Assembly (NCBI RefSeq): GCF_000789235.1
Contig: NZ_KN525716.1
Location: 496,001-560,000 of the forward strand
Source: Wocania ichthyoenteri Th78
GTDB lineage: Bacteria; Bacteroidota; Bacteroidia; Flavobacteriales; Flavobacteriaceae
Length of the DNA stretch: 64,000 bases
Reading direction: 5' to 3'
This document shows positions 705 to 39,480 of this stretch, piece after piece. Made by a program: the position numbers and the translations under genes. Position 1 is the first letter of the stretch. Each line of letters opens with the position of its first letter. The notes beneath the pieces are model-generated. The model was not told where the DNA came from and searched no databases. It was given only the letters and a program-made list of their open reading frames with translations.

Positions 705-708
705 TTGA

Positions 709-2958: not shown

Positions 2959-2970
2959 TTATATTTTATA

Positions 2971-4440: not shown

Positions 4441-4691
4441 CTGTTTGTTTTTGCTTTACTCAAAAATATTTTTTCTATTGGTAAATAACTACACATAAAA
4501 TGGCTTTAACCGATACTTTTTTTTCTTTAACAAACAAATAAGATAGCAAACTCTTAATTCATAATAAACAACGGATCATATTAACTTTATTTTATAAAAT
4601 TTCAACAACCTCTTTTTAGTTTTCTATAATAATTTGGCTAAAAGATTATAAGAGGGATAGCTTCTAAACATAGAATTTACGAATTCTGTTT

Positions 4692-7019
4692 TTATTTGCT
4701 TAATGAATACGGTGTATTTTCAGGTTTGCTCGCCCATTCCTTATTTGGTGTGGCATTCATATCGAATTCTAAATGCCCACCATTTTGAATATCTTCAAAC
4801 TTGACAAAACTATTTTCCCAAGGTTTTCCATTTAACAAAACACCTTCAATAAAAACATTTTCTTTTGAATTATTTGATGCAGAAACCTCAAAAGTTTTTC
4901 CATTTTCTAAAGTAAGTATCGCATTCTTAAACAAAGGACTTCCAATAACGTATTCATCTACAGAAGGTGTTACCGGATAAAAACCTAGTGAGCTAAAAAC
5001 ATACCATGCCGATGTTTGTCCATTATCTTCATCGCCGCAATACCCATCTGGAGTTGCACTATACAATTTAGCTAACACATCTCGCACTTTTTCTTGAGCT
5101 TTATATGATGCATTGGCATAATTATATAAGTAAATCATGTGTTGAATAGGTTGATTCCCATGTGCATAATTACCCATATTGGCAATTTGCATTTCTCGAA
5201 TTTCGTGAATGGTAAATCCGTAATACGAGGCATCAAAATCTGGTGGCATATCGAAAACCTGATCTAATTTAGATGCAAATTTTTCTTTCCCTCCCATTAA
5301 ATCAATCAAACCTTGCGTATCGTGAAAAACCGACCATGTATAATGTAAACTATTCCCTTCTGTAAACGCGTCTCCCCATTTTAAAGGGTTAAATGGTGTT
5401 TGAAAACTACCATCTTCATTTTTTCCACGCATTAAATTAGTTGATGGGTCAAACAAATTTTTGTAGTTATTTGATTTTTTATAAAAATCCTTAGCTGCGT
5501 TTTTCTTATCTAGTTTTTCCGCCATTCTTGCAATGGTAAAATCTGCAAAAGCATATTCTAAAGTTCGTGCTGCATTTTCATGAATATTAACATCATAAGG
5601 CACATAACCCAGTTCATTATAATAACTTAAACCTGCACGTCCTACTGAGTTTGCTGGACGACCATTACCCACACTTGCATTTTTCAATATCGCGTCATAC
5701 AATACATCAACGTCTTTTTCATTCATATTTCCTTTTAAAAAAGCATCGGCAATAATGGTTGCGGAATTTGAGCCAATCATACAATCGCGATGTCCTGGGC
5801 TTGCCCATTCTGGCAACCAACCAGACTCTTTGTACGTGTTTGCCAATCCTTCCATAATTTGAGTATTTAACTCAGGATACATCATATTAAAAAATGGAAA
5901 TACAGCTCTAAACGTATCCCAAAACCCATTATCGGTAAACATATAACCTGGTAAAACCTCGCCATTATATGGACTATAATGTATTACATTACCTTTAGCA
6001 TCATATTCATAAAATTTTCTTGGGAATAACAAAACGCGGTATAGACAAGAGTAAAAGGTTCTAATATTATCGATATTATCATCTTTTATAACAATTCTTT
6101 GCAACTCTTTTTCCCATGCATTTCTGGCTTTTTCTTTGGTTTTTTCAAATGAATCACTACCAATTTCTGTTTTTAAATTTAATGCTGCTTGCTCGTGACT
6201 GATAAACGACGATGCCACTTTTACGTGAACTTGCTCTCCTTTTTTAGTTTTAAAACCGATGATTGCTCCAACGTGTTCGCCTTTGTTTTCTGTTGAATTT
6301 TCAATGAGTTTCCAGTCATCTCCCCAAGTGTGATTTAGTTCAAAATCTTTATCAAATTCAGCTATAAAATAATTATGAAAATTATCTGGTACTCCACCAC
6401 TATTGTTTCGACAATAGCCAATAATTTTTCTTTCCTTCGGTAGAATTTTCACCATAGAACCTTTAAAAAAAGCATCTAACATAATATATGCCGAATCGGT
6501 TTCTGGGAATGTAAACCTAAAATGTGCTGCGCGTTCTGTTGGCGAAACCTCTGCTGTGACATCGTAATCGGCAAGATATACGCTGTAATGATGTGGTTTT
6601 ACAATTTCTGCTTTATGTGAAAAGTAAGAAACTCTTTCTTCTTCTTTATATTTTAAATTGCCTGTCACTGTCATTAAAGAAAAAGCGGCATAATCATTTA
6701 TCCACGGACTTGGTTGATGAGTTTGTTTAATGCCTCTTATAGTCTTATCATCATATTTATACATCCAACCATCGCCCATTTTTGCAGTTTGTGGCGACCA
6801 GAAATTCATTGCCCAAGGCGTTGCAATAGCTGGGTATGTGTTTCCATTGGACAAGCTAAAATCGGAGTCTGTTCCCATAAGTGGGTTTACATACTCTAAT
6901 AAACTCGTTTCTAATTTGAGTTTATCCGTATTTGTTTGATTTTCTACTTGATTACATGATACAGACCATAACAAAGTAATAGCTATTAAATATTTAACAA
7001 TTTTCATAATACGTACCAC
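4692..7019 (-). CDS. GH92 exo-alpha-mannosidase lipoprotein
   Basis: This 775-residue GH92 enzyme has a lipoprotein signal (lipobox SVSC), so it is membrane-anchored. The ORF opens MVRIMKIVKYL. The methionine at residue 5 (start at 7007) gives a more usual lipoprotein N-terminus, and the longer start would lie only 2 bp after the upstream GH29 stop. GH92 marks are NPLMGTD, an SNGNTYPAIATPW variant of the first glycine-rich block, WDTFRAVFPF, TEGNSLHYTW with the putative acid Glu, and GDEDNGQTSAW at residues 662-672. The first block and GDED differ from the two canonical GNEDCGQMS members in this cluster, so a distinct mannoside or linkage specificity is likely. A 251-bp gap follows before the next gene. 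Confidence 0.93.
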   Translation of the reverse strand: MVRIMKIVKYLIAITLLWSVSCNQVENQTNTDKLKLETSLLEYVNPLMGTDSDFSLSNGNTYPAIATPWAMNFWSPQTAKMGDGWMYKYDDKTIRGIKQTHQPSPWINDYAAFSLMTVTGNLKYKEEERVSYFSHKAEIVKPHHYSVYLADYDVTAEVSPTERAAHFRFTFPETDSAYIMLDAFFKGSMVKILPKERKIIGYCRNNSGGVPDNFHNYFIAEFDKDFELNHTWGDDWKLIENSTENKGEHVGAIIGFKTKKGEQVHVKVASSFISHEQAALNLKTEIGSDSFEKTKEKARNAWEKELQRIVIKDDNIDNIRTFYSCLYRVLLFPRKFYEYDAKGNVIHYSPYNGEVLPGYMFTDNGFWDTFRAVFPFFNMMYPELNTQIMEGLANTYKESGWLPEWASPGHRDCMIGSNSATIIADAFLKGNMNEKDVDVLYDAILKNASVGNGRPANSVGRAGLSYYNELGYVPYDVNIHENAARTLEYAFADFTIARMAEKLDKKNAAKDFYKKSNNYKNLFDPSTNLMRGKNEDGSFQTPFNPLKWGDAFTEGNSLHYTWSVFHDTQGLIDLMGGKEKFASKLDQVFDMPPDFDASYYGFTIHEIREMQIANMGNYAHGNQPIQHMIYLYNYANASYKAQEKVRDVLAKLYSATPDGYCGDEDNGQTSAWYVFSSLGFYPVTPSVDEYVIGSPLFKNAILTLENGKTFEVSASNNSKENVFIEGVLLNGKPWENSFVKFEDIQNGGHLEFDMNATPNKEWASKPENTPYSLSK

Positions 7020-7021
7020 AT

Positions 7022-8365
7022 TTAGTTACTCTCTATTTTTTGACCTTCTTCTCGATACAAATCAACTTCTCCATCCAATAATATGGCAATTACAGTAACA
7101 TCTTTATCTTGAACTTCTTTTGGAACATCTATATACAACAGACCTGGAACAGAGCTCCAATACTGTTTACCAACAATATTATAAGATAATTTAGTACCAT
7201 TGCCAACAACCCACATTCTATTCACTTTATTTTTAAGTCCTTTTATTAACAAAGGCCCATTTGGTTCATTATCAACATATAAATACAAAATATTTTTGCC
7301 TTTAGATAGTGCTGTGTAGCCATTAAAATGTCCGTGAGGAATTCCTGCTCTAGTGCCATATATAGCTTCTTTATGCTTGCTAGTCCAATCACCAATACCC
7401 TTTAAAATATCTATTTGTTCCTGTGGGATAGTACCATCTGGTTTGGGACCTATATCAAGCAATAAATTTCCACCCATACTAATACAGTCAACTAAAATAC
7501 GGATGAGTTGATTTACCGATTTATATTCTTTATCATTTGGTTGGTAGCCCCAAGAATTATTCATGGTCATACACAATTCCCAATAGTTATTTTTAGGTTT
7601 TGTAATGGGTACACCTTGCTCTGGAGTTGCATAGTCGCCATAACCTTGTAGTCTGGAATTTATAATAGTTGTGGGCGTTTTATCCAATAATAATTCACGA
7701 ATTCCCTTAGCTTTCCATTGTTCTGCAGATTGCTCCCAATCACCATCAAACCAATATAAATCTGGGTTATAATTAGTCAATTCTTCAATCTGCCCAAAAT
7801 TGAATTTAGTAAATTTTTTCCACCTTTTTGCATCATCTGTGTATCGCTTTTTATCCCTTAAAAAATTCGGGTAATCTGGGTATGACCAATCTAATAGTGA
7901 ATAATACAAGCCCACTTTAAGTTTTTCTTTACGAGCAGCATTTACAAACGGCGTTAGTACATCTTTTTTTGCCTTTGCTTGTTTTACGGTATTCAAGTCA
8001 CCTTGTTTAGAATTCCAAAGCGCTACACCATCATGATGTTTTGCAGTTATCACAGTGTATTTAGCTCCACTTTCTTTAATAAGTTTTGCCCAATACTCAG
8101 GATCATATTTTTTTGCAGTAAAACCATCCAACTGATTCATGTAATCTTGATGAGAAATGTATTTATTAAAAAACGACCAAGATTCGTCTATGCCATTTAC
8201 TGAATATATACCCCAATGAATGAAAATACCTAATTTAGCATCTTTAAACCATTCAAGACGTTCTTCTTTTGAAAGTTCTTCATTCTGACTTTTAGCAACT
8301 GTGCTACAAAAAAGTAAAGACAATACAATTGCTACTTTTAAAACGCATGTTTTTTTTCTTACCAT
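7022..8365 (-). CDS. GH29 alpha-L-fucosidase
   Basis: This 447-residue protein is the second GH29 alpha-L-fucosidase of the locus. A signal peptide ends near AKSQ (residues 1-27). Motifs are IHWGIYSVNG at about 49-58, TAKHHDG at 107-113, and LYWFDGDW, where Asp207 is the expected nucleophile. It is only distantly similar to the GH29 at 2971-4440 and lacks the longer loops of that enzyme, so the two probably cut different fucose linkages. Its start codon overlaps the last 7 bp of the upstream cytochrome gene, and the downstream GH92 follows immediately. It is therefore translationally linked to the redox cassette, which is the strongest physical tie between that cassette and glycan degradation. 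Confidence 0.92.
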   Translation of the reverse strand: MVRKKTCVLKVAIVLSLLFCSTVAKSQNEELSKEERLEWFKDAKLGIFIHWGIYSVNGIDESWSFFNKYISHQDYMNQLDGFTAKKYDPEYWAKLIKESGAKYTVITAKHHDGVALWNSKQGDLNTVKQAKAKKDVLTPFVNAARKEKLKVGLYYSLLDWSYPDYPNFLRDKKRYTDDAKRWKKFTKFNFGQIEELTNYNPDLYWFDGDWEQSAEQWKAKGIRELLLDKTPTTIINSRLQGYGDYATPEQGVPITKPKNNYWELCMTMNNSWGYQPNDKEYKSVNQLIRILVDCISMGGNLLLDIGPKPDGTIPQEQIDILKGIGDWTSKHKEAIYGTRAGIPHGHFNGYTALSKGKNILYLYVDNEPNGPLLIKGLKNKVNRMWVVGNGTKLSYNIVGKQYWSSVPGLLYIDVPKEVQDKDVTVIAILLDGEVDLYREEGQKIESN

Positions 8366-10488
8366 AATATAATTTCATCAATAAAAATCCATGGTGGGTT
8401 GCCTGCACCTTCATGCCATTTTGGTAATACTTTAGGATTTTCGGCAATAACTTTAAAGTATTGTGCTTTGGTGCTTTCTGGCATTTTGATATTAAACTTT
8501 TTAATTACTGTCGATTCAGTTGTTTCATCTTCTACAATAGGTAACGAACCAACTAACTTAAATCCTGAGGTTTTATTTGAAGACGCATAAACTTGGATGT
8601 TTTTTGGGAACATTATCCAATCTCTAGATCGTCCTAAACAATTAACTGTAACTGTGTTAACTGTTTTAACTTCTCCTAAATTTAAAGTAGTATTTAAGTC
8701 GTTACCAAGATAACCATTCCATTTTTCATCCTTAAAATTTTCGGAACCTAATTTAAAATCAAATAGTTTTTTAGGTCCAAAATATTGTTTTTCAGGTTTG
8801 TGCACAATAGTATAATCTACAACTTGATGGGTTACTTTTATAAAGTCTTCTTTCATGGTTTCGCTAGGTAACCAGCCTTTCTTATAAGCTTTTACAGCTA
8901 TACTAGTTGCAGTGTTAATTAAAATTGGCTCTTTATAAACCGAAGAAGTAGAGTCTGGTTCGGCACCATCAAGTGTATAGAAAACTTTAGTCCCTTTTAT
9001 TTTTGAATCTAATTTAATAGATAGCGTATCGGTAAAAAGAGTGTTTTTAGTTAATAATATTGGAGATTTTATTTGTGTTGTTTTTACAAAATCTTCAGCG
9101 ACACCGTTATTCAAATTAACATTAAATTTATTTTGAATTTGCTCTGCTGCGTTTTTAGTAATACTAGTTTCCCAAGCAAATACTCGTTCTAATTTAATTG
9201 ATGACAAAAGATTTTCTAAGCCTTTATCACTAACTCCAGTTTTTACTAAGTTTAATGTATTAAGTGTTTTTGATTCTTTTAAATACAATAAAGTTTTATC
9301 TGTTATTTGTGTGTTACTTACATCTAACTTTTTTAAGTTTTTAAGATTCTCAATCTCAGAAGTCATGGCATCTGTTAACATCGAGTTGCTTAAATCTAAT
9401 TCTATAATTTGTTCTTTTAAGTTAGCTAATTCTTTAACTGCTTTTTTAGTGATACTGTCTTTATTAAATTTCACCCACAATTCTGGTTGATTAGGCACTA
9501 CTTTTCTAACTAAAAAACCAGCAGCTTCAGCTGTTTGAATATCGCTAAAAGAAGCTTCCTTAATTTTCTTTTTATTGAAAACTAAATAGGTATTTAATAG
9601 ACTATTTAAAGTATCACTTTTTGGCATAGCAACAACTTTAGTATTAAAATCAGCACTCTTATTTATCCAATATTGAATTAACCAAATTTCATCTTTTGTA
9701 AGTTGAGGCTTTCCTTCTGGCGGCATGTGTTTTTCATCCGAAATTGGTAACAAAATATGCTCATACAACATACTTTTGTTTGCATTTCCTAAGATTATAA
9801 CATCGCCAGATTCTCCTCCTTTTAATATACTTTCTTTAGAGTGTAATGCTAATTCACCTTTTCTTTTTGAAGTATTATGACATTGAATACACTTGTTATC
9901 AAATATTTTTAAAACCACATCATCATACATTTTTAAACTATCAATGTGTGTTATGGTTTTTGCTTTTGGTAATGGTTTTAAATGTTCTGTAATAAAATTA
10001 TCACCGTGCGTTAAAACACTTCCAAAATGTCCAGCAACGGTTATTCCAATTAAGGTTACTACAAAAAGCGGAAAGAATAATTGTTTTATGAATTTTCCTT
10101 TTTTATCAGCTAATAGAAATAAAAGAGTGATTAATATCGCTGAAGCAATTCCTGTCCAGAAATGAATATCCAATACATCTTCTGAATAACCACCTTCTAA
10201 AGATAAAAAGTATCCTAAAACACAGGCTAAAATTGAAAAAAATGATGAAAACCCTAAGGCGTATTTTATGGTGGTTTTGGGATAATTTTTTCTTAATCTG
10301 CCTATAATATCTAAGAAAAAAGTAAGTATTAATGCACCAATGGGAAGATGAAGAATTAATGGATGAAATCGCCCTAATGCTTGTACAAACCTTGGAATAT
10401 CTTCAGCATTTTCGGCATAAGTTGCATTAAAAGCTAACAGACATATAATAAAAATAATTTGTGTTTTTGTGTTTTTAATCATCCTCAA
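8359..10488 (-). CDS. DUF2231 membrane c-type cytochrome with LRR, CHB_HEX_C-like and F5/8-like domains
   Basis: This is a 709-residue multidomain protein. After a signal-like segment (about 10-25) come four hydrophobic helices (about 45-65, 75-97, 110-127, 138-158) resembling DUF2231. A PSCyt1-like cytochrome c domain follows, with haem motif C200-I-Q-C203-H204 and a downstream HMPP whose Met255 could be the distal ligand. Leucine-rich repeats span about 355-445. A chitobiase C-terminal-like domain lies at about 475-550 (FYTLDGAEPD), and an F5/8 type C-like module at about 570-709 ends WHEGAGNPPWIFIDEI. The arrangement points to a membrane-anchored electron carrier with a carbohydrate-binding tail; no substrate is known. 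It sits 9 bp after the small lipoprotein gene and overlaps the GH29 start. Confidence 0.85.
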   Translation of the reverse strand: MRMIKNTKTQIIFIICLLAFNATYAENAEDIPRFVQALGRFHPLILHLPIGALILTFFLDIIGRLRKNYPKTTIKYALGFSSFFSILACVLGYFLSLEGGYSEDVLDIHFWTGIASAILITLLFLLADKKGKFIKQLFFPLFVVTLIGITVAGHFGSVLTHGDNFITEHLKPLPKAKTITHIDSLKMYDDVVLKIFDNKCIQCHNTSKRKGELALHSKESILKGGESGDVIILGNANKSMLYEHILLPISDEKHMPPEGKPQLTKDEIWLIQYWINKSADFNTKVVAMPKSDTLNSLLNTYLVFNKKKIKEASFSDIQTAEAAGFLVRKVVPNQPELWVKFNKDSITKKAVKELANLKEQIIELDLSNSMLTDAMTSEIENLKNLKKLDVSNTQITDKTLLYLKESKTLNTLNLVKTGVSDKGLENLLSSIKLERVFAWETSITKNAAEQIQNKFNVNLNNGVAEDFVKTTQIKSPILLTKNTLFTDTLSIKLDSKIKGTKVFYTLDGAEPDSTSSVYKEPILINTATSIAVKAYKKGWLPSETMKEDFIKVTHQVVDYTIVHKPEKQYFGPKKLFDFKLGSENFKDEKWNGYLGNDLNTTLNLGEVKTVNTVTVNCLGRSRDWIMFPKNIQVYASSNKTSGFKLVGSLPIVEDETTESTVIKKFNIKMPESTKAQYFKVIAENPKVLPKWHEGAGNPPWIFIDEIILW

Positions 10489-10497
10489 ATATATATG

Positions 10498-11286
10498 CTA
10501 GTTAAAAATAAATTCGTCCATAAACAACCATGCTTTTTGTCCTTTTCCTTCGTGCCACTCAGGAATAGATTGCAAATTATTTATTTTAATTTTTAATGAC
10601 GTAATTTCGGCATCAATAGGAATATTTATAGTTCCATTTTTCTTATCAACAAGTTGACTTAAAGGCTTTATAATTTTTTCCTTTTTTGAATCATTATCCA
10701 TAAATATAATAATACTTTCTGGAGGAAATATCCATGATGCAGCATCATTCAAATAACTAATTGTAACAGATTTTACATGATTTTTTTTGTTGAATTTTAC
10801 AGTTGATATAGCAGTGGTATCAAATCCAACCCATTCTTTATCAGTAAAATTTAATGATGCTTTAGTTTGGTTAATTACTGTTTTATCTCCTTGTCCACTA
10901 TACTTTTCAGAAGCTTTAGTGTACCACAAAATATTATCGGCAGATATGCCTTTTTTAAACAATTCTATTTCGGTAACTTCACTTGGTTTCCAATTATTAT
11001 GAAATGCTTTAAATTTATAAATCCCAGGATTTGAAACTTGAATGGGTTGTGTGTATTTTTCCGAATTTAAACTAGGTTCGTTGCCATTTGATGTGTAATG
11101 GATGGCTACATTTTCAACTTTTAAATGAGCTCGAATGGCAACAAAAGAATCTATAAACGTTTTGTTGACTATTACGCGAGGTTGCGCTAAACTAATACTG
11201 TTTTGTTGTAAAAAATTAGTTTGCTCTTCCTGTTTACAACTAAGCATTAAAAAAAACATAAAGCACAGACTCATTAATAACCTCAT
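10498..11286 (-). CDS. lipoprotein with CHB_HEX_C-like and F5/8-like modules
   Basis: I place the start at 11286 rather than at the longer in-frame ATG at 11328. That start makes an ATGA overlap with the stop of the upstream NHL gene and gives a clean lipoprotein signal (MRLLMSLCFMFFLMLSC, Cys17). The mature 245 residues contain a chitobiase C-terminal-like domain (about 32-110, IHYTSNGNEPS) and a beta-rich module (about 125-262) ending in WHEGKGQKAWLFMDEF. Both match the C-terminal half of the neighbouring DUF2231 cytochrome, and the second also resembles the tail of the GH20 at 16257. There is no catalytic domain, so it is probably a surface or periplasmic binding subunit of the cassette. 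The function is inferred only. Confidence 0.8.
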   Translation of the reverse strand: MRLLMSLCFMFFLMLSCKQEEQTNFLQQNSISLAQPRVIVNKTFIDSFVAIRAHLKVENVAIHYTSNGNEPSLNSEKYTQPIQVSNPGIYKFKAFHNNWKPSEVTEIELFKKGISADNILWYTKASEKYSGQGDKTVINQTKASLNFTDKEWVGFDTTAISTVKFNKKNHVKSVTISYLNDAASWIFPPESIIIFMDNDSKKEKIIKPLSQLVDKKNGTINIPIDAEITSLKIKINNLQSIPEWHEGKGQKAWLFMDEFIFN

Positions 11287-12326
11287 ACTCTTGTTAATTT
11301 TATAGGATAGGTTTGACCTGAATTCCATTGTGCTACATATATATTTTCATCGTCATCTATACACACATCGTGTGGATGCTGAAACAATCTTACGGTTTGA
11401 TACAATTCTTCTAAAGCATTATTTTTGTATTCTGGTAAAGTAGCTCCTGGACACGAAACGACCTCATTTTTTTCATTCATAATTAATAAAAACCCAGAAT
11501 CGCTATTTGGCGCATTTTTAGATTTTAACACCGCAAAATAAATATCGTTTTTATGAATTACTGGTCGGCAAATTAAAGCTCCGGGAACAGGAATTGATTC
11601 TAAATAATTACCTTTTAAATCAAACCGTTTTAACACATTCATTTCTCTAGCCGAAATTAAAAGTGATGAATTCTTTTTATCTCTATTATCATAACAAATA
11701 CCATGGGCGTTTAAAAACTGACCGTTTTCTTTTCCTCGTCCTCCAAAAATATTGAGTAATTCGCCTTTATGATTATAGTGTGTTATGTATTGATTTCCAT
11801 AACCATCGGCTACATAAAAATCACCATTCTCTAAAATGGTAGTTTCGGTTGGTTTAAACTCCTCTCTGCTATTATATTTCCCTGTATCCGCGGGATAATC
11901 AATTTCAAAAACCACCTTTCCGTCTATAGTTGTTTTTATTACTTGATGTCTTTCATAGTCTGTAATCAACAAAAAATCTTCACCGTTTTCTTTAACCAAA
12001 GTAAGACCATGACCGCCTGGAAATTTGGTACCCCAAGTTTTAATTAATTTTCCAGATTTATCATAAATAATGATATTGTTTTTAGTATGATTGGTTAGCA
12101 AAACGATTCTTCCTTTAGAATCTTGAACCATTTCATGGCAATCTTTTACAGGTGTTTTTAATACATCTAGATTTCCCCAATTCATATCTACTTTATAGCG
12201 ATGCGAATTGTGCCCAATAATAACATCGTTTTTAGAACTGAATTGTAATGCGTTGCCACACATAGGATAGGCTAGTATGCCTATAGAAAACAATGACGAC
12301 TGTTTTAAAAATTGTCTGCGACTCAT
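11283..12326 (-). CDS. NHL-repeat beta-propeller protein with twin-arginine-like signal
   Basis: This 347-residue protein begins MSRRQFLKQSS, a twin-arginine-like export signal, followed by a short hydrophobic stretch. The rest is a series of about six NHL-type repeats. Typical turns are GHGLTL, NGDFYVADGYGNQYI, GQFLNAHGICYD and HPHDVCIDDDENIYVAQW, which predict a six-bladed propeller like those of peptidyl-alpha-hydroxyglycine lyase-like proteins. Twin-arginine export implies folding or cofactor loading before secretion. The family supports no firm reaction, and it could be a lyase or a scaffold. It lies 9 bp after DUF1501 and shares an ATGA overlap with the lipoprotein downstream, so the two are translationally coupled. 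Confidence 0.82.
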   Translation of the reverse strand: MSRRQFLKQSSLFSIGILAYPMCGNALQFSSKNDVIIGHNSHRYKVDMNWGNLDVLKTPVKDCHEMVQDSKGRIVLLTNHTKNNIIIYDKSGKLIKTWGTKFPGGHGLTLVKENGEDFLLITDYERHQVIKTTIDGKVVFEIDYPADTGKYNSREEFKPTETTILENGDFYVADGYGNQYITHYNHKGELLNIFGGRGKENGQFLNAHGICYDNRDKKNSSLLISAREMNVLKRFDLKGNYLESIPVPGALICRPVIHKNDIYFAVLKSKNAPNSDSGFLLIMNEKNEVVSCPGATLPEYKNNALEELYQTVRLFQHPHDVCIDDDENIYVAQWNSGQTYPIKLTRV

Positions 12327-12335
12327 AGTAAAATC

Positions 12336-13793
12336 TTAGGATAAAATATCGTTAACGACATGACCAGAAACATCGGTAAGCCTAAAGCGTCTGCCTTGAT
12401 GTTTATGGGTAAACTTAGTATGATCTACACCCATAAGGTGCATAATAGTAGCTTGTAAATCATGAACATGCATGGGGTCTTTAGCAATGTTATACCCAAA
12501 ATCGTCTGTTTCTCCATAAGTAAACCCTGGTTTTACACCACCGCCAGCCATAAACATAGTAAAGCATTTTGGGTGGTGATCTCTACCATAATTCATATCC
12601 GTTAAAGTACCTTGACTATAATTTGTTCTTCCAAACTCGCCGCCCCAAACCACTAAAGTATCTTCAAGTAACCCACGTTGTTTTAAATCCATAATAAGCG
12701 CTGCTGTAGCTTGATCAATATCTTTGGCTTGTTTTTCTATTTGAGAAGGTAAATCAAAATGCTGATCCCAACCCATGTGATACAATTGAATAAATCTCAC
12801 ATCGCGCTCAGCCATGCGTCTTGCTAACAAACAATTTGCCGCATAAGTTCCTGGAACCATTGCATCTGCACCATACATTTGAATAATGTGATCTGGCTCT
12901 TCTTCAATATTCATAGTTTCTGGAACTGAAGTTTGCATACGGTACGCCATTTCATATTGTGCAATACGACTATTTATTTCTGGGTCGCCAAATTGAGCTT
13001 CTTGTTTTTGATTTAACTCACTAATATGATCGAGCATGGCGCGTCTTTGTGACCTCGACATACCATCTGGATCTTTTAAATACAGAACAGGATCTTTGCC
13101 GGATCTAAATTGTACACCTTGGTGTAATGAGCTCAAAAACCCGTTACCCCAAAGTCTAGAATATAAAGGTTGTGAAAAAGGGCGACCAGTTCCTCTGGAT
13201 AATAATACAGAAAATGTAGGCAAGTTTTCGTTAAGACTTCCTAATCCGTAACTCATCCACGAGCCTATACTTGGTCGACCAGGTTGTTGAGAACCTGTTT
13301 GAAAAAAGGTAATGGCTGGATCGTGGTTTATAGCTTCTGTATGCATGGATTTAATAAAGCATAATTCATCAACAACTTTGGCTGTATAAGGCATTAAACT
13401 ACTTACCCATGCTCTAGATTCACCATACTGGTTAAACTTAAAGTTGCTACCAACCAACGGAAAACTTTCTTGTCCAGAAGTCATTCCCGTTAATCGTTGT
13501 CCTTGTCGTACAGAATCTGGAAGATCTTGCCCTCTCATTTTATTTAAAAGCGGTTTGTAATCAAAAAGTTCTAATTGCGAAGGACCACCACTTTGGAATA
13601 AATAAATGACACGTTTTGCTTTAGGCGCAAAATGAGGCAAGTTTAGTCCTGTTGGGTTTAAATTACTGTTACCTGATAAAGAAGAAAACGGATCTAATAA
13701 TGATGCAGCAGCTAAACCACCAATACCTAATCCCACTTTTTTTAAAAAATGCCTTCTATTATTATTTATAAAATGTTTTGATAATTCTTCCAT
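12336..13793 (-). CDS. DUF1501 family protein
   Basis: This 485-residue DUF1501 protein is distantly related to the alkaline phosphatase/sulfatase fold. It starts with a twin-arginine signal (NNRRHFLKKVG, then an Ala/Gly-rich helix to about residue 35). Family marks include YLFQSGGPSQLELFD, HNPAITFF-like spacing (NHDPAITFFQTGSQQPGRPS), GWDQHFDLP, VVWGGEFGRT and GRDHHPKCF, with several His and Asp residues that could bind metal. DUF1501 genes are typically paired with PSD1/DUF1553 genes in Planctomycetes and some Bacteroidota, exactly as here, where the PSD1 gene ends 4 bp upstream. The molecular function of the pair is unknown. Confidence 0.92.
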   Translation of the reverse strand: MEELSKHFINNNRRHFLKKVGLGIGGLAAASLLDPFSSLSGNSNLNPTGLNLPHFAPKAKRVIYLFQSGGPSQLELFDYKPLLNKMRGQDLPDSVRQGQRLTGMTSGQESFPLVGSNFKFNQYGESRAWVSSLMPYTAKVVDELCFIKSMHTEAINHDPAITFFQTGSQQPGRPSIGSWMSYGLGSLNENLPTFSVLLSRGTGRPFSQPLYSRLWGNGFLSSLHQGVQFRSGKDPVLYLKDPDGMSRSQRRAMLDHISELNQKQEAQFGDPEINSRIAQYEMAYRMQTSVPETMNIEEEPDHIIQMYGADAMVPGTYAANCLLARRMAERDVRFIQLYHMGWDQHFDLPSQIEKQAKDIDQATAALIMDLKQRGLLEDTLVVWGGEFGRTNYSQGTLTDMNYGRDHHPKCFTMFMAGGGVKPGFTYGETDDFGYNIAKDPMHVHDLQATIMHLMGVDHTKFTHKHQGRRFRLTDVSGHVVNDILS

Positions 13794-13797
13794 AATT

Positions 13798-16158
13798 TTA
13801 TCCTTTAATAATAGCCTCGTCTAGATTGAAAATTAAACTCGAAAGCAAAGTATATGCATATTCAGTTTTTGAAGTATTTTCTGTTTTAACCAAATTTTTT
13901 GTATTGGTTTCAAAATCGTTTTCAACAGTTTCAACATATTGTACTAATTTATCCAGTTCTTCTTCCGTAGGAAAACGAGATGTTATTTTTCTAAATATAA
14001 GGTTAATCCGATCGTTATCAGACATTGTTTTATCTTTCAATATGTCTTTTGCTAAATGTTCTGCAGCTTCAATAAGTTGCGGATCGTTAAGCATTACTAA
14101 AGCCTGTAATGGCGTACTTGTTTTTTGACGTTTTACTTCGCAAAAATCTCTAGTCGGCGCATCAAAAGTCATCATAGAAGGAGGCGGAACGGTACGCTTC
14201 CAAAACGTATATAAGCTTCTTCTGTGCAAATTCTCGCCTGTATCTGGTATATATTTTGTGAGTCCTTGTCCAGATGTTGTTTCTGCCCAAAGCCCTGGGG
14301 GTTGATAAGGTTTTACGCTTGGACCTCCTATTTTATTAACCAACAAACCACTTACTGCCAAAGCATTATCACGAACCATTTCTGCTGTTAACTTACTTCT
14401 TGGATATCTTGCTAATAATACATTGTCTGGATCTAACTCTAATAAATTAGGTGCTATTTTAGACGTCTGTTTATACGTGCTAGACATAACTAAACGCTTA
14501 TACATTTTCTTCATATCCCAGCCTTCTTCTCTAAAAGTAACTGCTAACCAATCTAATAATTCTGGATGTGATGGTAACGCACCTTGATTACCAAAATCAT
14601 CTGAAGTTGAAACAATTCCAACACCAAAAATGTGTTGCCACATGCGGTTTACTGCAACTCTTGCGGTTAAGGAATTATCCTTATCAAATAACCAATTGGC
14701 AAGCCCTAATCTGTTTTTTGGAAGTGAATCCGAATACTTCAAAATGAAGTTTGGTGTACCCAATTCTACCTCTTCATCTGGCGCATCATATTGCCCACGT
14801 TTTAATATGTGTGTTTTTCTATTTGGTGCATTGTCTTTCATCACCATAAGTTTAACCTCTTTTATAGAGTCTGGTAAATTTATAAATACTAAGGTTTCAT
14901 CAATTTCTTTTTGAGTAATTTTAATATTAGGTTCAGGAATTTCGCCATAATCAATTTGCCCTTTTTCACCTACTTTATTAAAAAATCCATAAAAACCATA
15001 AAACTCTCTTTGTGAAATTGGATCGTATTTATGGTCGTGGCATCTAGCACATTCCATGGTTAAACCCATTATGGCTTTTGATGTAGTATTAGCTCTATCC
15101 ATAACGTATTCCACACGATATTCTTCATCAATTACCCCACCCTCTTGAGTTATTTTATGGTTTCTGTTAAATGCCGTAGCAACTATTTGTTCGGGCGTAG
15201 CATTCGGTATTAAATCGCCTGCCAGTTGCCATTTAACAAACTCATCATAAGGAATATTTCTATTAAAAGCACTAATTACCCAATCTCTCCATGGCCACAT
15301 AATACGCTCTAAATCATCTTGATATCCATGCGTATCAGCATACCTAGATATGTCTAACCAAGTGGCTGCCATTCGCTCTCCGTAAGCGGTTGATGCTAAT
15401 AATTTATCAACTACCTTTTCGTAAGCATTGGTATTTTTATCATTTAAAAAGGCATCAATATCTTCTATTTTTGGAGGAAGCCCTGTGAGGTCAAAATATA
15501 CTCTTCTAATTAACTGCTCTTTTGAAGCTGCTTCAGATGGTGCTAAGCCTTCTTGCTCTAATTGCTTTGCTATAAAATAGTCAATCTTATTAGTAGCCCA
15601 ATCCTGGTTTGCTATTTTTGGAACCTCTTTTTTTTGTGGTGGCACGAAAGACCAATGTGCCTTCCATTCTGCACCTTGTTCTATCCATTTAATTAAAACT
15701 TGCTTTTCATATTCAGACAAACTTAAATTAGAATTTGGTGGTGGCATCACTTGTTGCGGGTCGGTATTTGTAATTTTATAAACCAACCGACTTTTCTCTG
15801 GTTTTCCTGGAACAATAGCGTGATTATCTAAATTACTTGCTAAAGCTTTATAGGCGCCTTCTTTGGTATCTAATCTTAATCCCGCTTCACGAGTACCTTC
15901 ATCAGGACCGTGACACAAATAACAGCGGTCTGATAGAATGGGTTTTACATCAAATATATAATCAATAGCACCGGGTAAATTGCTTGTTTTTTCGTTTGAA
16001 TGTGAATTAGATTTCTCAGTAGAATTGGTTTCACCAATAGATTGATACGAGTTATCTGAAACAGTCAATCCATACTTTACTAATAAAACAATAACAAATG
16101 GCACTAAAAAATATAGTGCTAAAACAAAACGATTACTAGAATATTTACCTTTTGCCAT
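13798..16158 (-). CDS. PSD1 protein: PSCyt1 cytochrome c + DUF1549 + DUF1553
   Basis: This 786-residue protein has an N-terminal membrane anchor (about 11-30), a Ser/Asn-rich linker, and a planctomycete-type cytochrome c domain with haem motif C79-Y-L-C82-H83 followed by GPDE and a later MPPP. A DUF1549 domain (about 190-395) contains a second CxxCH (C370-A-R-C373-H374), and a DUF1553 domain covers about 490-760 (NRMWQHIFGVGIV, FDAPTRDFC). The anchor and the haem motifs imply a periplasm- or surface-facing redox protein; the family's substrate is not known. It is the first gene of the five-gene cassette. A 98-bp gap separates it from the upstream GH20, and the DUF1501 start follows 4 bp after its stop. 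Confidence 0.92.
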   Translation of the reverse strand: MAKGKYSSNRFVLALYFLVPFVIVLLVKYGLTVSDNSYQSIGETNSTEKSNSHSNEKTSNLPGAIDYIFDVKPILSDRCYLCHGPDEGTREAGLRLDTKEGAYKALASNLDNHAIVPGKPEKSRLVYKITNTDPQQVMPPPNSNLSLSEYEKQVLIKWIEQGAEWKAHWSFVPPQKKEVPKIANQDWATNKIDYFIAKQLEQEGLAPSEAASKEQLIRRVYFDLTGLPPKIEDIDAFLNDKNTNAYEKVVDKLLASTAYGERMAATWLDISRYADTHGYQDDLERIMWPWRDWVISAFNRNIPYDEFVKWQLAGDLIPNATPEQIVATAFNRNHKITQEGGVIDEEYRVEYVMDRANTTSKAIMGLTMECARCHDHKYDPISQREFYGFYGFFNKVGEKGQIDYGEIPEPNIKITQKEIDETLVFINLPDSIKEVKLMVMKDNAPNRKTHILKRGQYDAPDEEVELGTPNFILKYSDSLPKNRLGLANWLFDKDNSLTARVAVNRMWQHIFGVGIVSTSDDFGNQGALPSHPELLDWLAVTFREEGWDMKKMYKRLVMSSTYKQTSKIAPNLLELDPDNVLLARYPRSKLTAEMVRDNALAVSGLLVNKIGGPSVKPYQPPGLWAETTSGQGLTKYIPDTGENLHRRSLYTFWKRTVPPPSMMTFDAPTRDFCEVKRQKTSTPLQALVMLNDPQLIEAAEHLAKDILKDKTMSDNDRINLIFRKITSRFPTEEELDKLVQYVETVENDFETNTKNLVKTENTSKTEYAYTLLSSLIFNLDEAIIKG

Positions 16159-16181
16159 TTTTATGAATTTTATTTAAACAC

Positions 16182-16212
16182 TCATGTTAATTATAATATA
16201 AAGTTAATCAAA
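16182..16212 (-). promoter_or_regulatory. weak candidate promoter for the PSD1 cassette
   Basis: On the minus strand a TTTG box (16209-16212) lies 19 bp before TAACATGA (16182-16189), a poor match to the Bacteroidota -7 box TAnnTTTG. The -33 side sits in a CGATTTTTTTTTG run much like the one upstream of the large secreted proteins at 35192 and 39554. If real, the redox cassette could be transcribed separately from the GH20 upstream. Confidence 0.3.
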
Positions 16213-16256
16213 AAAAAATCGACAGATAACGTGTTACTATAGCTTGATAAAAGATT

Positions 16257-18581
16257 TTAGCGGACAATAATTTCGTCAACGAAAATCCAAGTGTCATTTC
16301 CTCTTTCAGATTTCTTTAAATTTTTAGCTTTTACTTTAACAAATCGCACTTTTTGAGTATCAAAATCGATGCTAAAATCTTTAAGTGTTATTCCTGCATT
16401 ATTTTGATACGGTCTGTCGATTTTTCCAACACTAGAGAATATTTTTCCATCGTTAGACACTAATACTTCAACTTGCGTTGGAAAATAAATGCTCGGTCCT
16501 TGGCTTTCCATTGTTCCAACAGATACATTAGAGATCTCGGTTTCATCTTCTAAATCTATAGTCAATTCCATATCTTTTACTAACCACGCTTGCCATTGCC
16601 CATCATGGAAATTTTTAGTTCCACGAACAATATTTACCATGTTTGCAGATTCTTTTCCTTTGTAGCTATCGCTGTATTTAGTATTGTAAACCACTTTTTT
16701 ACCAACCGCTTTATGATAATTAAATGTTTTTTTAAATACTTTTCCAACAGGTTTATTATCCTCGTAAAGCGATGCTTTTATGGTTGTAGTTGAATTGATT
16801 TCAATGGGTTTAGTATAAGCAATTGCAGTTTCATCAAGTGGCGTATCATTTAAAGCATAACGAATATCTGCCACAGGAAACTCATTTTTTAATGATATAG
16901 TAATGGTATTTGTGGTGTCATCAACATCAGTCTCAGATCTTAAAGTATACGCACTTTTTGCATAATTTATGCCTTGATGCTTATAACTTATAAAAATATT
17001 TTCCATACGTGATGAAAAATTCGTCCAATCTCTACTTCCTTTGGAACTCCAAAGTGCTTCGGATAAAGCTGCTAACCTTGGATAAATCATATATTCTGAA
17101 TGCGATTCGGTAGTAATATGTTCTGCCCATAAATTGGCTTGTCCACCTAAAACATGTTTTGCTTGTTCATCACTCATCGTTTCAACAATAGGATCAAATT
17201 GATACACTTTACTTACTGGCGAATTTCCGCCCCAAGCTAAAGGTTCTGTATCTATTGGTCCTTGATAATGATCAAAATAACAATGTGTGCCTGGTGTCAT
17301 TACCACATCGTGTCCTTGTTCTGAGGCTTCTAATCCGCCTTTAACACCGCGCCAACTCATAACGGTTGCTCCCGGTGCTAATCCGCCTTCTAAAATTTCG
17401 TCCCAACCAATAAGCACGCGTTCTTTAGAGCTTATAAAACGTTCCATACGTTTTATAAAATAGCTTTGTAACTCTTCTGGAGATTTAAGATTCTCATCCT
17501 TCATGCGTTTTTTACAATGTATACATGCTTTCCAATTGGTTTTTGTGGCCTCATCTCCACCAACATGAATATATTTTGATGGAAACAATTCCATAACTTC
17601 AGTTAATACATCTTCTAAAAATTCAAAGGTAGAATCTTTTCCTGCGCAATAAATATCGGTTATTGGCCATAAGCCACCCGATGGCACTGGAACAGGTTTT
17701 TCTAAACAAGATAATTCTGGATACGAAGCTATAGCACTTGTAACATGCGCTGGCATTTCAATTTCTGGCACTACGGTTACACCACGACTTTCTGCATAAA
17801 CTACAATTTCTTTAATATCTTCTTGAGTATAAAAACCACCATAAGTTGCTTTTTCATCTAATTCTGGAGTGTAACGACCATCCCATGGCTTATCTTCTTG
17901 ATCAACTCTAAATGCACCAACTTCGGTTAGTTTAGGATATTTTTTAATTTCTATACGCCAGCCTTGGTCATCTACCAAATGAAAATGAAACGTATTCATT
18001 TTATGATACGCTAAACGATCGATTGTTTTTTTAATATATTCTTTTTTAAAGAAATGACGAGACACATCTAACATTAAACCTCGCCATTGAAAACGTGGTG
18101 CATCCACTATTTCAAGATTAGGAATTACCCAATTAACATCTGTAATTTTAGATTGTGACTCAATAGCAGTTGGCAATAATTGTCTAAGTGTTTGAACACC
18201 ATATAAAAGCCCATTAAAATCGTTAAATTCAATAGTTATTATATTATTTTCGACTACTAATTTATAGCCTTCTTCTTCTATATTTTCTGAAGTTTTAAAT
18301 TGAATAAAATTTGATTTAGGCTGAGCTTTAACCATTTTTAAATCCCACCCTTGAGCCATTTTAAATCTATCAATTAAAATTTGAGAAACTGTAGATTGCG
18401 CCTCATCTGTAACATAAAAGACCGTGTTTTCGTTAAACTCGAAATTTCCTTCGTTTAGTTTTAAGGTTTCAGGTTTTGGAATAACTTGAATATCATTTTC
18501 AGTAAACACCTTAGTTTCTTTAGTATCACAACTAAAAACAATCAGGCTTAATGTAAACACTATTAATACTTTTAATTTCAT
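16257..18581 (-). CDS. GH20 beta-N-acetylhexosaminidase with CHB_HEX_C-like and F5/8-like tail
   Basis: I start this gene at 18581, giving 774 residues. The MKLKVLIV start gives a standard lipoprotein signal (VFSC, Cys18), whereas the longer frame to 18620 would overlap the upstream GH92. GH20 enzymes release terminal beta-GlcNAc or beta-GalNAc by substrate-assisted catalysis. An N-terminal GH20b domain covers about 25-150. The catalytic barrel has FHFHLVDDQGWR, EIEMPAH and HVGGDEA with the Asp343-Glu344 pair. The C-terminus adds a chitobiase-like domain (about 555-625) and an F5/8-like module (about 635-774) ending DTWIFVDEIIV, homologous to the tails of two cassette proteins downstream. The gap to the GH92 upstream is 22 bp. 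Confidence 0.93.
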   Translation of the reverse strand: MKLKVLIVFTLSLIVFSCDTKETKVFTENDIQVIPKPETLKLNEGNFEFNENTVFYVTDEAQSTVSQILIDRFKMAQGWDLKMVKAQPKSNFIQFKTSENIEEEGYKLVVENNIITIEFNDFNGLLYGVQTLRQLLPTAIESQSKITDVNWVIPNLEIVDAPRFQWRGLMLDVSRHFFKKEYIKKTIDRLAYHKMNTFHFHLVDDQGWRIEIKKYPKLTEVGAFRVDQEDKPWDGRYTPELDEKATYGGFYTQEDIKEIVVYAESRGVTVVPEIEMPAHVTSAIASYPELSCLEKPVPVPSGGLWPITDIYCAGKDSTFEFLEDVLTEVMELFPSKYIHVGGDEATKTNWKACIHCKKRMKDENLKSPEELQSYFIKRMERFISSKERVLIGWDEILEGGLAPGATVMSWRGVKGGLEASEQGHDVVMTPGTHCYFDHYQGPIDTEPLAWGGNSPVSKVYQFDPIVETMSDEQAKHVLGGQANLWAEHITTESHSEYMIYPRLAALSEALWSSKGSRDWTNFSSRMENIFISYKHQGINYAKSAYTLRSETDVDDTTNTITISLKNEFPVADIRYALNDTPLDETAIAYTKPIEINSTTTIKASLYEDNKPVGKVFKKTFNYHKAVGKKVVYNTKYSDSYKGKESANMVNIVRGTKNFHDGQWQAWLVKDMELTIDLEDETEISNVSVGTMESQGPSIYFPTQVEVLVSNDGKIFSSVGKIDRPYQNNAGITLKDFSIDFDTQKVRFVKVKAKNLKKSERGNDTWIFVDEIIVR

Positions 18582-18603
18582 CAGTCTTTTTTTTATTTTA
18601 TTA

Positions 18604-20802
18604 TTACTTTTTAGGAACATCGCTCATTGTAAAAACTAGTGTTCCCCCGTTTATTATTTCTTTATGTGAAATGTAATTTCTGCTAATTGTTTGTCCGTTT
18701 AACATAATAGATTCAATATATTTATTAGTTTTTGAATTGTTAATCGTCTCAATTTTAAACCGCTTGCCGTTTTCTAAATTGATGGTGGCTTTATCAAAAA
18801 TTGGTGAACCAAAACTATACAATCCTTCTGCTGGATTTACTGGATAAAATCCTAAACTGCCAAAAATATACCACGACGACATTTGCCCACAATCCTCATT
18901 TCCGCAGTGTCCGTTTGGTTCATTTTTATACTGCGTTTCAAGAATTTCTCTAACTATCTTTTGCGTTTTCCAAGGTTTATCAATGTTATTATACAAATAT
19001 GCTACATGATGACTGGGCTCGTTACCGTGTGCGTATTGCCCAATCATTCCTGTGCTGAAAATTGGTAATTCATCAGTTGGTAACGGATTTAGCGTAAACA
19101 TAGAATCTAGTTTTTGCTCAAATCGCTCTTTACCACCAACGGTTTCAATAAGTCCGTTAACATCATGCTGAACCGACCAAAAGTATTGCCATGCGTTACT
19201 TTCACAGAAATAAGCAGAGTAATCTTTAGGAATAAAGTCTTTTACAAATGTGCCATCTTCTAATTTTGGGCGCATAAAACTACTTTTAGCATCGTACACG
19301 TTTTTCCAATTTTCTGAGCGTTTTAAGAAATATTCATAATCATCGGTTTTATTTAAAACTTTTGCAAATTGCGCCACACACCAATCGCCATAAGCATATT
19401 CTAATGTTTTTGAAACCGACCAGTTTTCGTGCGTTTCATCAACAGGAATAAACCCAAGTTTTTTATAAATATCAATTTGTCTGCTATCGTCCATCGCGCT
19501 TGCTTTACAAGCTTCAAAAGCTAATTGCGCATCAAAATCGATGCCTTTAAAATAGGCATCAACAATTACAGGAATGGCGTGATAGCCAATCATCATATTA
19601 GTTTCATTACCCTGCATGGACCAAACTGGTAACAATCCTGTTTCTTGGTAGTGTGCCAGTAACGATTGTACCATATCACTAACACGTTCTGGATGCATAA
19701 TCGTATATAACGGATGTGCTGCTCTGTAGGTATCCCACAACGAAAACGTGTCATACCTTTCGTAGCCTTCAGCTTTCATTATAGTATCATTTGCTCCTTT
19801 ATAATTACTGTTATAATCGCTTAAAAGTGTTGGTGCTAACATGCTCTGGTAAAGCATAGTATAAAAAATATGCTTTTGGGTTTCGTTTTTAGTTTCTATG
19901 TTAATTTTTTGCAATTGATTTTCCCAAATGCTATCCGCTTGTTTTTTATAAGTTTCAAAATTAAAATGTGGTGCTTCATTTTTTAAAGATAATGTAGCAC
20001 CTTCATCATTTGCTGTTGAAAGCCCTGTTTTTAAAACAATTACCTCATTTTCTCTTGTATTATAATTTAAGATGATTTTTGTGTTTTTTGCTTTTGCAAA
20101 ATGTTTAACTAGAGTATCATTTTGATATAATTGATACGACTCAAAAGGCTTTGAAAATTCAATTTGAAAATACACGCGTTGATCTTTTGCCCAACCTGTA
20201 GATTTTCGGTAACCTTCAATAGTGGTATTATTTATAACCTTGATATATGTGTCGGTTGGCACATCCCAATTGAGCGCATAACCTAAATCAATATGAATTT
20301 GCGATAAACTATCATGTGGAAATGTGTATTTATGAATGCCTGTGCGTTTGGTTGCAGTAACTTCGGCTTTAATGCCATAATCTAACAAATCGACTGAATA
20401 ATAACCGGGTGATGCTGCTTCTTTATTATGCGAAAAACTAGAAAACGGTTTGAAATTATTGTCTTTAATACGTTTATTGAATCTGCTATTGGTTGGCATG
20501 ACCAAAATATCGTATAAATCGCCTGCCCCGGTGCCGGTTAAATGCATGTGCGAAAACCCGGAAATAATGGAATCTTGATAAAAATATCCCGCAATGCGAT
20601 CCCAACCCGGAATACCAATATCTGGACTTAATTGTACCATCCCGAAAGGTACTGTTGCTCCCGGATACGTATTTCCCGGACCATCAGTACCTATAAACGG
20701 ATTAACATAATATGTTAATTTTTTAGTGGATTCATTTTTATCTTTAGTACAATTAAAAAATAGTAAACCAATTAAGATTAAAATGACACTTTTCTTTAAC
20801 AT
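18604..20802 (-). CDS. GH92 exo-alpha-mannosidase lipoprotein
   Basis: This 732-residue GH92 lipoprotein (lipobox FFNC, Cys18) has the canonical motif set: NPFIGTDGPGNTYPG at the N-terminus, WDTYRAAHPL, SVSKTLEYAYGDW, CESNAWQYFW with the putative general-acid Glu, and GNEDCGQMSSWY at residues 634-645. It closely resembles the GH92 at 25961 in architecture and is the sort of enzyme that trims alpha-1,2 or alpha-1,3 mannose from high-mannose N-glycans. The exact linkage cannot be read from sequence. It starts 2 bp after the GH10-like gene and is followed 22 bp later by GH20, so mannose and GlcNAc removal are co-expressed. Confidence 0.94.
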   Translation of the reverse strand: MLKKSVILILIGLLFFNCTKDKNESTKKLTYYVNPFIGTDGPGNTYPGATVPFGMVQLSPDIGIPGWDRIAGYFYQDSIISGFSHMHLTGTGAGDLYDILVMPTNSRFNKRIKDNNFKPFSSFSHNKEAASPGYYSVDLLDYGIKAEVTATKRTGIHKYTFPHDSLSQIHIDLGYALNWDVPTDTYIKVINNTTIEGYRKSTGWAKDQRVYFQIEFSKPFESYQLYQNDTLVKHFAKAKNTKIILNYNTRENEVIVLKTGLSTANDEGATLSLKNEAPHFNFETYKKQADSIWENQLQKINIETKNETQKHIFYTMLYQSMLAPTLLSDYNSNYKGANDTIMKAEGYERYDTFSLWDTYRAAHPLYTIMHPERVSDMVQSLLAHYQETGLLPVWSMQGNETNMMIGYHAIPVIVDAYFKGIDFDAQLAFEACKASAMDDSRQIDIYKKLGFIPVDETHENWSVSKTLEYAYGDWCVAQFAKVLNKTDDYEYFLKRSENWKNVYDAKSSFMRPKLEDGTFVKDFIPKDYSAYFCESNAWQYFWSVQHDVNGLIETVGGKERFEQKLDSMFTLNPLPTDELPIFSTGMIGQYAHGNEPSHHVAYLYNNIDKPWKTQKIVREILETQYKNEPNGHCGNEDCGQMSSWYIFGSLGFYPVNPAEGLYSFGSPIFDKATINLENGKRFKIETINNSKTNKYIESIMLNGQTISRNYISHKEIINGGTLVFTMSDVPKK

Positions 20803-21929: not shown

Positions 21930-21938
21930 CTTATTTTT

Positions 21939-39316: not shown

Positions 39317-39334
39317 TCTAACCAAACCAATTTA

Positions 39335-39368
39335 GAAAAGGGTTGAATATTAATATTCAACCCTTTTC
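39335..39368 (+). terminator. terminator after the M14 gene (perfect 34-bp palindrome)
   Basis: Two 17-base arms, the left one GAAAAGGGTTGAATATT, pair perfectly with no unpaired base, 18 bp past the stop. The arm is followed by TTGTTAT. In RNA the middle AT pairs would open to form the loop. It is a likely intrinsic terminator. Confidence 0.8.
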
Positions 39369-39480
39369 TTGTTATACACTATCTTAATTATCTAAACTTA
39401 AAAAATCATAATAAATATAAAAATATTAATACACTTATAATCAATTGATTAGAAACAAATAATGCATTTCAACGATTTTT

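Follow-up and report, generated by a model that had tools for sequence, protein, structure and literature searches.

Why should a gene cluster for N-glycan breakdown contain a compact set of genes that includes two for predicted haem proteins? The question is raised by a 64,000-nucleotide stretch of the Wocania ichthyoenteri Th78 genome (RefSeq assembly GCF_000789235.1, contig NZ_KN525716.1, positions 496,001 to 560,000), hereafter the window, in which five adjacent genes lie among glycoside hydrolase (GH) genes. An earlier description made from the sequence of the window (the original prediction) had regarded these five genes as a cassette embedded in an N-glycan degradation operon. We found that the cassette is a modular unit of conserved gene order, that one class of cassettes co-localizes with N-glycan genes far above chance, and that this link is real but optional. 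The five genes are as follows:

13798 to 16158, minus strand: PSD1 protein with an N-terminal hydrophobic anchor, a PSCyt1 haem-c domain, PSCyt2/DUF1549 and PSD1/DUF1553 (Pfam)
12336 to 13793, minus strand: DUF1501 protein with a twin-arginine (RR) signal motif (Pfam, structural model, Foldseek and profile-profile comparison)
11283 to 12326, minus strand: NHL-repeat protein with an RR signal motif (Pfam, 29-row alignment and PDB profile search)
10498 to 11286, minus strand: lipoprotein with CHB_HEX_C_1 and a discoidin-like module; a longer frame starts at 11328
8359 to 10482 (ATG start) or 10488 (TTG start), minus strand: DUF2231-cytochrome c protein (Pfam, 37-row alignment and hydropathy)

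Analysis of open reading frames (ORFs) and Pfam domains placed all five genes where the original prediction had located them, reading on the minus strand from 16158 down to 8359. Domains in all five proteins exceeded the curated Pfam cut-offs: PSCyt1, PSCyt2 and PSD1 in a single protein, DUF1501, an NHL repeat, CHB_HEX_C_1 in the lipoprotein, and DUF2231 together with PSCyt1 and CHB_HEX_C_1 in the last protein. The tight packing previously described was also recovered. PSD1 and DUF1501 are separated by 4 bp and DUF1501 and NHL by 9 bp, the NHL and lipoprotein genes share an ATGA overlap at 11283-11286, and the DUF2231 gene overlaps a GH29 gene by 7 bp (8359-8365); the spacing between the lipoprotein and DUF2231 genes is 9 or 15 bp, depending on the DUF2231 start codon chosen.

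Conservation of gene order

Gene order was surveyed around relatives of the DUF1501 gene, using the best 80 of 590 candidates, mostly from Bacteroidota, with flanks of up to 10 kb. Genes were labelled by tblastn and blastp, and a DUF2231 label can mean the C-terminal module alone. PSD1 was found directly upstream of DUF1501 in 75 of the 78 loci with a readable upstream side. In 20 loci, one of them truncated at the end of its contig, a lipoprotein-type gene directly followed NHL, and no such gene was seen elsewhere in the surveyed gene runs of the 80 loci. All five genes were present in order in 17 loci, while 26 contained PSD1-DUF1501 alone at the best-scoring copy, with the remainder being intermediate, cut or exceptional. 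The 7-bp overlap with GH29 recurs in a single survey locus (L028).

A second sample was obtained by searching 299 genomes of the window's family with a profile of the NHL protein, yielding matches in 76. Cassettes with an NHL score of at least 546 bits were designated class I (25 loci from 22 genera), and lower-scoring cassettes (classes II and III/IV) served as controls. Based on Pfam for the window and blast labels for the other loci, 24 of the 25 class I loci carry all five genes in order, the exception being genome G158, with no lipoprotein match. No lipoprotein was found in the seven regions with lower-scoring cassettes that were examined. Conservation in relatives, which had been put forward as a check on the original prediction, thus held in both samples.

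The unit is modular, with a PSD1-DUF1501 core, a DUF2231 gene that is often added, and NHL and lipoprotein genes as further additions. An example is genome G001, from the window's own genus, where PSD1, DUF1501 and DUF2231 lie between GH20 and GH92 and both the NHL and lipoprotein genes are missing.

Linkage to N-glycan degradation genes

The GH92, GH130, GH20 and GH29 families serve N-glycan breakdown, and the window locus carries the full set. Around the cassette are four GH92, two GH29 and two GH20 genes, together with GH130, GH123, a sulfatase and an SSF symporter. The closest solved structure to the window GH130 is UHGB_MP (4udg, E = 2.9e-151), and one GH92 is closest to 6f8z (E = 2e-195), in agreement with N-glycan breakdown.

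Across class I, a listed GH92 gene was located within 10 kb of 12 of the 25 cassettes (0.32 expected) and within 20 kb of 13 (0.54 expected), the latter spanning 10 of the 22 genera. Among the controls, GH92 was near none of the 27 class II cassettes at either distance and near 1 of the 22 class III/IV cassettes. Results for GH20 were similar, with a listed gene within 10 kb of 10 class I cassettes (0.36 expected) and within 20 kb of 11, compared to none of the 27 class II and none of the 22 class III/IV cassettes at 10 kb. These counts rest on the matches listed, and the expected values assume 4.2 Mb per genome. They leave out 33 weak or partial GH20 matches, all of which, on a check by hand, were either more than 20 kb from a cassette or on another contig; the observed counts therefore stand, and the class I expectation would rise by ~0.1. 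For GH92 at 10 kb, class I differed from all other cassettes by Fisher's test (P = 2.5e-6, for loci that are not phylogenetically independent). With no limit on distance, class I genomes also contained GH92 more often than the others (20 of 25 versus 140 of 274, P = 0.006, with genome relatedness not removed and assuming that both searches drew the same 299 genomes). Because class I is defined by NHL, cassettes without NHL in N-glycan loci, such as that of G001, fall outside the 25. Shorter regions were available for G287 (5 kb on one side), G193 (1-17044) and the class III cassette of G001 (one-sided). Co-localization of the cassette with N-glycan genes is far above chance and specific to class I.

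The cassette occupies several different junctions. It lies between GH20 and GH92c or GH29 in the window, G003, G206, G215, G306 and G165, ~10 kb after GH20 in G294, between GH92b and GH20 in G242 and G023, and after GH29 in G127, and it is divergent from the GH genes in G034, G249 and G200. A two-gene regulator intervenes in L042, L048 and L055, which in the one pair scanned (L042) comprises a histidine kinase and a LytTR response regulator. We mapped linkage onto a DUF1501 tree of 60 of the 111 loci, after dropping loci without an NHL match and two identical rows. With 20 linked loci, this tree requires 11 changes of linkage state, at least 7 of which are forced by well-supported branches; removing eight loci on contigs shorter than 19 kb left 52 loci, with 10 changes and 7 forced. 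Linkage labels were clustered on both trees (0 of 500 shuffles as low), indicating that much of the linkage is inherited.

The association extends to distant lineages. A Saprospiraceae locus (L040) has PSD1-DUF1501-NHL among GH92, GH130 (tblastn), GH47, GH20 and a BNR-repeat sialidase-like protein (Pfam), and the five cassette genes of Phaeodactylibacter (L049) come after two GH92 genes and a sulfatase-like gene. In the Saprospiraceae locus, blast had labelled one gene as DUF2231, which we rejected since Pfam identifies a BNR-repeat protein with the same C-terminal module. At L040:12968-17704, a GH20 gene takes the place where relatives have the lipoprotein, followed by this BNR-repeat protein with CHB_HEX_C and an F5/8 module. 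Separately, a sulfatase gene follows DUF2231 in L044, L047 and L057, at distances of 12, -1 and 28 bp, respectively.

Features of the cassette proteins

The window PSD1 protein contains haem motifs C79xxC82H83 in PSCyt1 and C370xxC373H374 in PSCyt2/DUF1549. The original prediction had counted two CxxCH motifs in this protein and one in the DUF2231 protein, and both counts proved general: two in 51 of 51 PSD1 rows (the window and 50 of 54 listed relatives of the short form) and one in 37 of 37 DUF2231 rows (the window and 36 of the 39 listed). Both PSD1 motifs and M138, a candidate distal methionine, are invariant across the 51 rows, and PSD1 is predicted to carry covalent haem c. By sequence, the first cytochrome domain alone matches solved haem proteins (FoxE, E = 2.5e-4); the AlphaFold model has a predicted local distance difference test (pLDDT) score of 81.9. 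Pfam found no LamG domain in the window protein. Longer forms exist elsewhere: the long-form PSD1 protein of L056 has a Laminin_G_3 domain (Pfam), and L058, L075, L078 and L088 carry two or three PSD1-DUF1501 pairs in tandem, often with long PSD1 proteins. The window genome also has a second pair (L002, G000:C1:1486518-1488896), whose DUF1501 is 49% identical to the window copy. The ORF after it resembles, by eye, Tat-exported sugar isomerases/epimerases.

The twin-arginine motifs attributed to the DUF1501 and NHL proteins are present near the N terminus in 46 of 46 DUF1501 rows (the window and 45 of the 81 listed) and in 27 of 29 NHL rows. The DUF1501 model (pLDDT 78.4) resembles sulfatases, LtaS-type proteins and phosphonate hydrolases in the best 50 of 673 Foldseek matches, with probabilities of 0.96-1.00 and low template modelling (TM) scores of 0.25-0.38, and a sulfatase profile covers its C-terminal half with 81% probability (hhalign). 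Judging from the model, DUF1501 has an alkaline-phosphatase/sulfatase-superfamily fold, with the low TM-scores as a qualification. The motif that yields formylglycine in S1 sulfatases is CxPxR, of which C98 and R102 of the window sulfatase are invariant across 16 sulfatases. In DUF1501, His157 occupies the nucleophile position as the counterpart of C98 in 46 of 46 rows, and the Pro and Thr-Gly that come after it stand at the same distances as those after C98 in the window sulfatase. This equivalence is drawn from the motif and the modelled secondary structure, since the profile alignment spans the C-terminal half only. Other residues conserved in the DUF1501 alignment, which together with H157 are candidates for a metal site, are D78, D343, H345, E386, H406 and H407.

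In the NHL protein, His64, His106, His208 and His319 are invariant at repeated positions of the 29-row alignment. The protein matches peptidyl-alpha-hydroxyglycine lyase (PAL, 3fvz) by PDB profile (E = 5.2e-10), although TRIM-type NHL domains score higher. PAL is an NHL propeller with a multi-histidine metal site, in which histidines at such positions have a metal role.

The DUF2231 domain has four hydrophobic segments by hydropathy, consistent with a four-helix membrane domain. His40, His45, His107, His152 and His159 are invariant across the 37 rows and located at the ends of these segments; if the predicted topology holds, all five would face the cytochrome-domain side. In the cytochrome c domain, Cys198, Cys201, His202 and Met253 are invariant. 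It is followed by a leucine-rich-repeat-like stretch, with PDB profile matches to leucine-rich-repeat proteins, and by ~220 C-terminal residues that match the C-terminus of beta-hexosaminidase 6q63 (E = 6.6e-46). A profile of the lipoprotein finds its own module in the DUF2231 protein (2.6e-57) and in the operon GH20 (3e-32), so that by profile similarity one C-terminal module is common to all three.

A proposed periplasmic oxidation step

Given the established gene order, haem motifs, common module, DUF1501 fold class and recurrent linkage to N-glycan genes, what might the unit do? We tentatively propose, at somewhat less than even confidence, that the five genes encode an autonomous redox unit of the periplasm and inner membrane, an optional add-on to N-glycan catabolism that oxidizes one of its products. 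We infer a complex, its topology, a substrate, oxidation rather than reduction, and an electron route. The PSD1-DUF1501 pair would oxidize an N-glycan-derived sugar or oligosaccharide in the periplasm, with DUF1501 as a metal-binding, sulfatase-fold subunit that would hold the substrate and the two PSD1 haems as putative electron acceptors. Electrons would then pass to the cytochrome c of the DUF2231 protein, its histidine-rich membrane domain and finally the quinone pool. NHL and the lipoprotein would be an accessory pair, jointly absent from G001. The hexosaminidase-type module found on the lipoprotein and at the end of the DUF2231 protein may bring the unit to the glycan on which GH20 works.

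This proposal draws on the conserved order, the linkage of class I to GH92 and GH20, the seven or more linkage changes and the separate Saprospiraceae locus. It also draws on the common C-terminal module, the invariant haem-c motifs, the five histidines at membrane-helix ends, and genes in the window genome for a cytochrome-c assembly protein and TatC. We regard as doubtful the wider claim that Bacteroidota have a haem enzyme system, linked to the respiratory chain, which oxidizes the building blocks of N-glycans in the periplasm, and in which DUF1501 is a sulfatase fold put to a new use, with histidine in place of the nucleophile.

Several observations weigh against the proposed oxidation unit. 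More than 20 kb separates 12 of the 25 class I cassettes from any listed GH92 (~23 kb in one of them, G158), and for five of these 12 genomes the matches listed contain no GH92 at all. The cassette is also absent from six N-glycan loci whose stretches we read (G291, G145, G310, G113, G224 and G131). These loci hold GH92, SSF, GH130, CBM9 and GH20 genes, and their six genomes gave no match to the NHL profile; G291 belongs to the same genus as G127, which has the cassette. The pathway can therefore do without it. No DUF2231 gene follows the best-scoring DUF1501 in 32 of the 80 survey loci (two of which end at a contig edge, while L059 and L088 have another DUF1501 copy and then DUF2231), and the Saprospiraceae locus L040 likewise showed none, indicating that the electron route proposed is not universal. 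By Pfam, a BNR protein also has the C-terminal module and a GH92 has its CHB_HEX_C part; the module may therefore be of a generic kind and have no targeting role. At 20 kb, GH20 was near 2 of the 27 class II cassettes (0.39 expected) and none of the 22 class III/IV cassettes. Finally, the PSD1 model matched no PDB fold at E ≤ 0.001.

What stands of the description of the cassette as embedded in an N-glycan operon is a recurrent linkage, at several junctions and in distant lineages. What does not stand is an essential role in that operon, which the six cassette-free loci and the 12 distant class I cassettes rule out. The oxidative or reductive step suggested in the original prediction is a putative one.

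Alternative explanations

The same uncoupled cases lend themselves to another explanation, that the cassette has a general redox function in the periplasm, with no relation to glycans, and is found in glycan operons only because expression there is suitable. Besides the 12 cassettes far from a listed GH92 and the five genomes without a GH92 match, the neighbours of the unlinked cassettes fit this idea: of 128 ORFs within 7 kb of the 12 cassettes, we scanned 127 (leaving out L109:9071-13504), and none of the 25 commonest of their 199 families was a glycoside hydrolase. We nevertheless consider it rather unlikely. The catabolic cluster joined is repeatedly the GH92/GH130/GH20 cluster, at no fewer than five different junctions, whereas related cassettes have no such linkage; two cassette proteins bear a hexosaminidase-type module; and in G317, though unlinked, the DUF4015-like and CBM9 genes of the N-glycan locus still adjoin the cassette.

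Unlikely, too, is a reading of DUF1501 as an alkaline-phosphatase/sulfatase-superfamily hydrolase that removes sulfate or phosphate from glycans, with the cytochromes in an auxiliary redox role. The best 50 of the 673 Foldseek matches, the sulfatase profile on the C-terminal half, the sulfatase genes following DUF2231 in three loci and the window's own sulfatase gene all fit a hydrolase, but the TM-scores are low and the cysteine position of the formylglycine motif is histidine in all 46 rows, which rules out a formylglycine sulfatase. A hydrolase would also leave the near-constant pairing with a protein of two haem motifs without a reason. Electrons might instead flow in reverse, with quinol as the donor to the DUF2231 cytochrome and PSD1, and drive a reduction or an oxygen activation at the glycan; the haem and histidine anatomy is neutral as to direction, but Pfam recognized no oxygenase or reductase domain in the five proteins, making this improbable. 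That the genes are chance neighbours without a common function can be dismissed given PSD1 upstream of DUF1501 almost throughout, the lipoprotein after NHL in 20 loci, all five genes in nearly every class I locus, and the class II-IV control cassettes.

Relation to known systems

Passages on PSCyt proteins in a study of freshwater Verrucomicrobia (PMC5615132) describe PSCyt/PSD1 proteins with adjacent unknown genes and a function not known, and already suggest a role in carbohydrate metabolism. Proteins of the PSD1 type can occur in large numbers: 41 instances each of the PSD1 and PSC2 domains are reported for the Rhodopirellula baltica genome (PMC2754498). As far as those passages describe them, the Verrucomicrobia proteins resemble the window cassette in combining PSCyt and PSD in one protein, with a constant neighbour family, near sulfatases and with carbohydrate-binding modules (PMC5615132). 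The window cassette differs from what is described there in its Bacteroidota host, the added NHL, lipoprotein and DUF2231-cytochrome genes, the lack of LamG and the N-glycan link.

Compared to Bacteroidota N-glycan loci, the window cluster shares GH92, GH130, GH20 and GH29, with a GH130 nearest UHGB_MP; it differs in having the haem cassette and in showing no SusC or SusD domain in the ORFs scanned (709-50984). DUF1501 is like S1 sulfatases and the alkaline-phosphatase superfamily in predicted fold and C-terminal profile, but has an invariant histidine for the nucleophile. The NHL protein shares with PAL a profile match and repeated conserved histidines, yet scores higher against TRIM-type NHL. 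The DUF2231 protein has the C-terminal module of beta-hexosaminidase 6q63, with a membrane cytochrome replacing the catalytic domain. Our searches of the open PMC literature turned up no earlier description of the five genes as a unit, of their repeated link to N-glycan genes, of the common hexosaminidase module or of the histidine replacement in DUF1501.

Linkage to one defined pathway offers a concrete candidate substrate class for PSD1-type proteins which, if the proposed oxidation is true, would be the first for the PSD1/DUF1501 family. If a redox step does exist in N-glycan catabolism, the all-hydrolytic picture of glycan breakdown is incomplete.

Neighbouring genes and minor observations

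Around the cassette, the window contains the following features:

4692 to 7019, minus strand: GH92 (Pfam)
7022 to 8365, minus strand: GH29 alpha-L-fucosidase, overlapping the DUF2231 gene by 7 bp (Pfam)
16159 to 16256: T-rich 98-bp gap between GH20 and PSD1, partly kept in close relatives; possible regulatory site
16257 to 18620, minus strand: GH20 beta-hexosaminidase, with the C-terminal module of the lipoprotein and DUF2231 protein (Pfam)
18604 to 20802, minus strand: GH92
20805 to 23012: DUF4015-like putative glycosidase and CBM9-like protein, which travel with GH92/GH130 genes
23080 to 24051, minus strand: GH130, nearest solved structure UHGB_MP
24054 to 25931, minus strand: SSF sodium symporter
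25961 to 28210, minus strand: GH92

The 98-bp gap suggests that the cassette may have its own promoter; promoter-like and terminator-like sites in the gap region were no more frequent than in shuffled sequence. DUF4015-like and CBM9-like genes were also found near the cassettes of L044, L048 and G317.

A hallmark of the 3-keto-glycoside pathway is the presence nearby of genes for a Gfo/Idh/MocA-type dehydrogenase and a keto-sugar lyase, neither of which was found in the scanned window ORFs (709-50984). Elsewhere, L031 has Gfo/Idh/MocA genes close to PSD1-DUF1501, and L041 has them close to the cassette. PSD1-DUF1501 has a common neighbourhood in L031, L032, L034, L035, L037 and L039, which in L031 includes FGE-sulfatase-like, xylose-isomerase-like, Gfo/Idh/MocA and GH109-type genes (Pfam) and suggests the context of an NAD-linked oxidative glycosidase.

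Further along the window, large plus-strand genes at 35192-49056 encode an M14 carboxypeptidase with a MAM domain and two Laminin_G proteins. All three proteins have type IX secretion sorting tails, and they may act on the protein part of glycoproteins.

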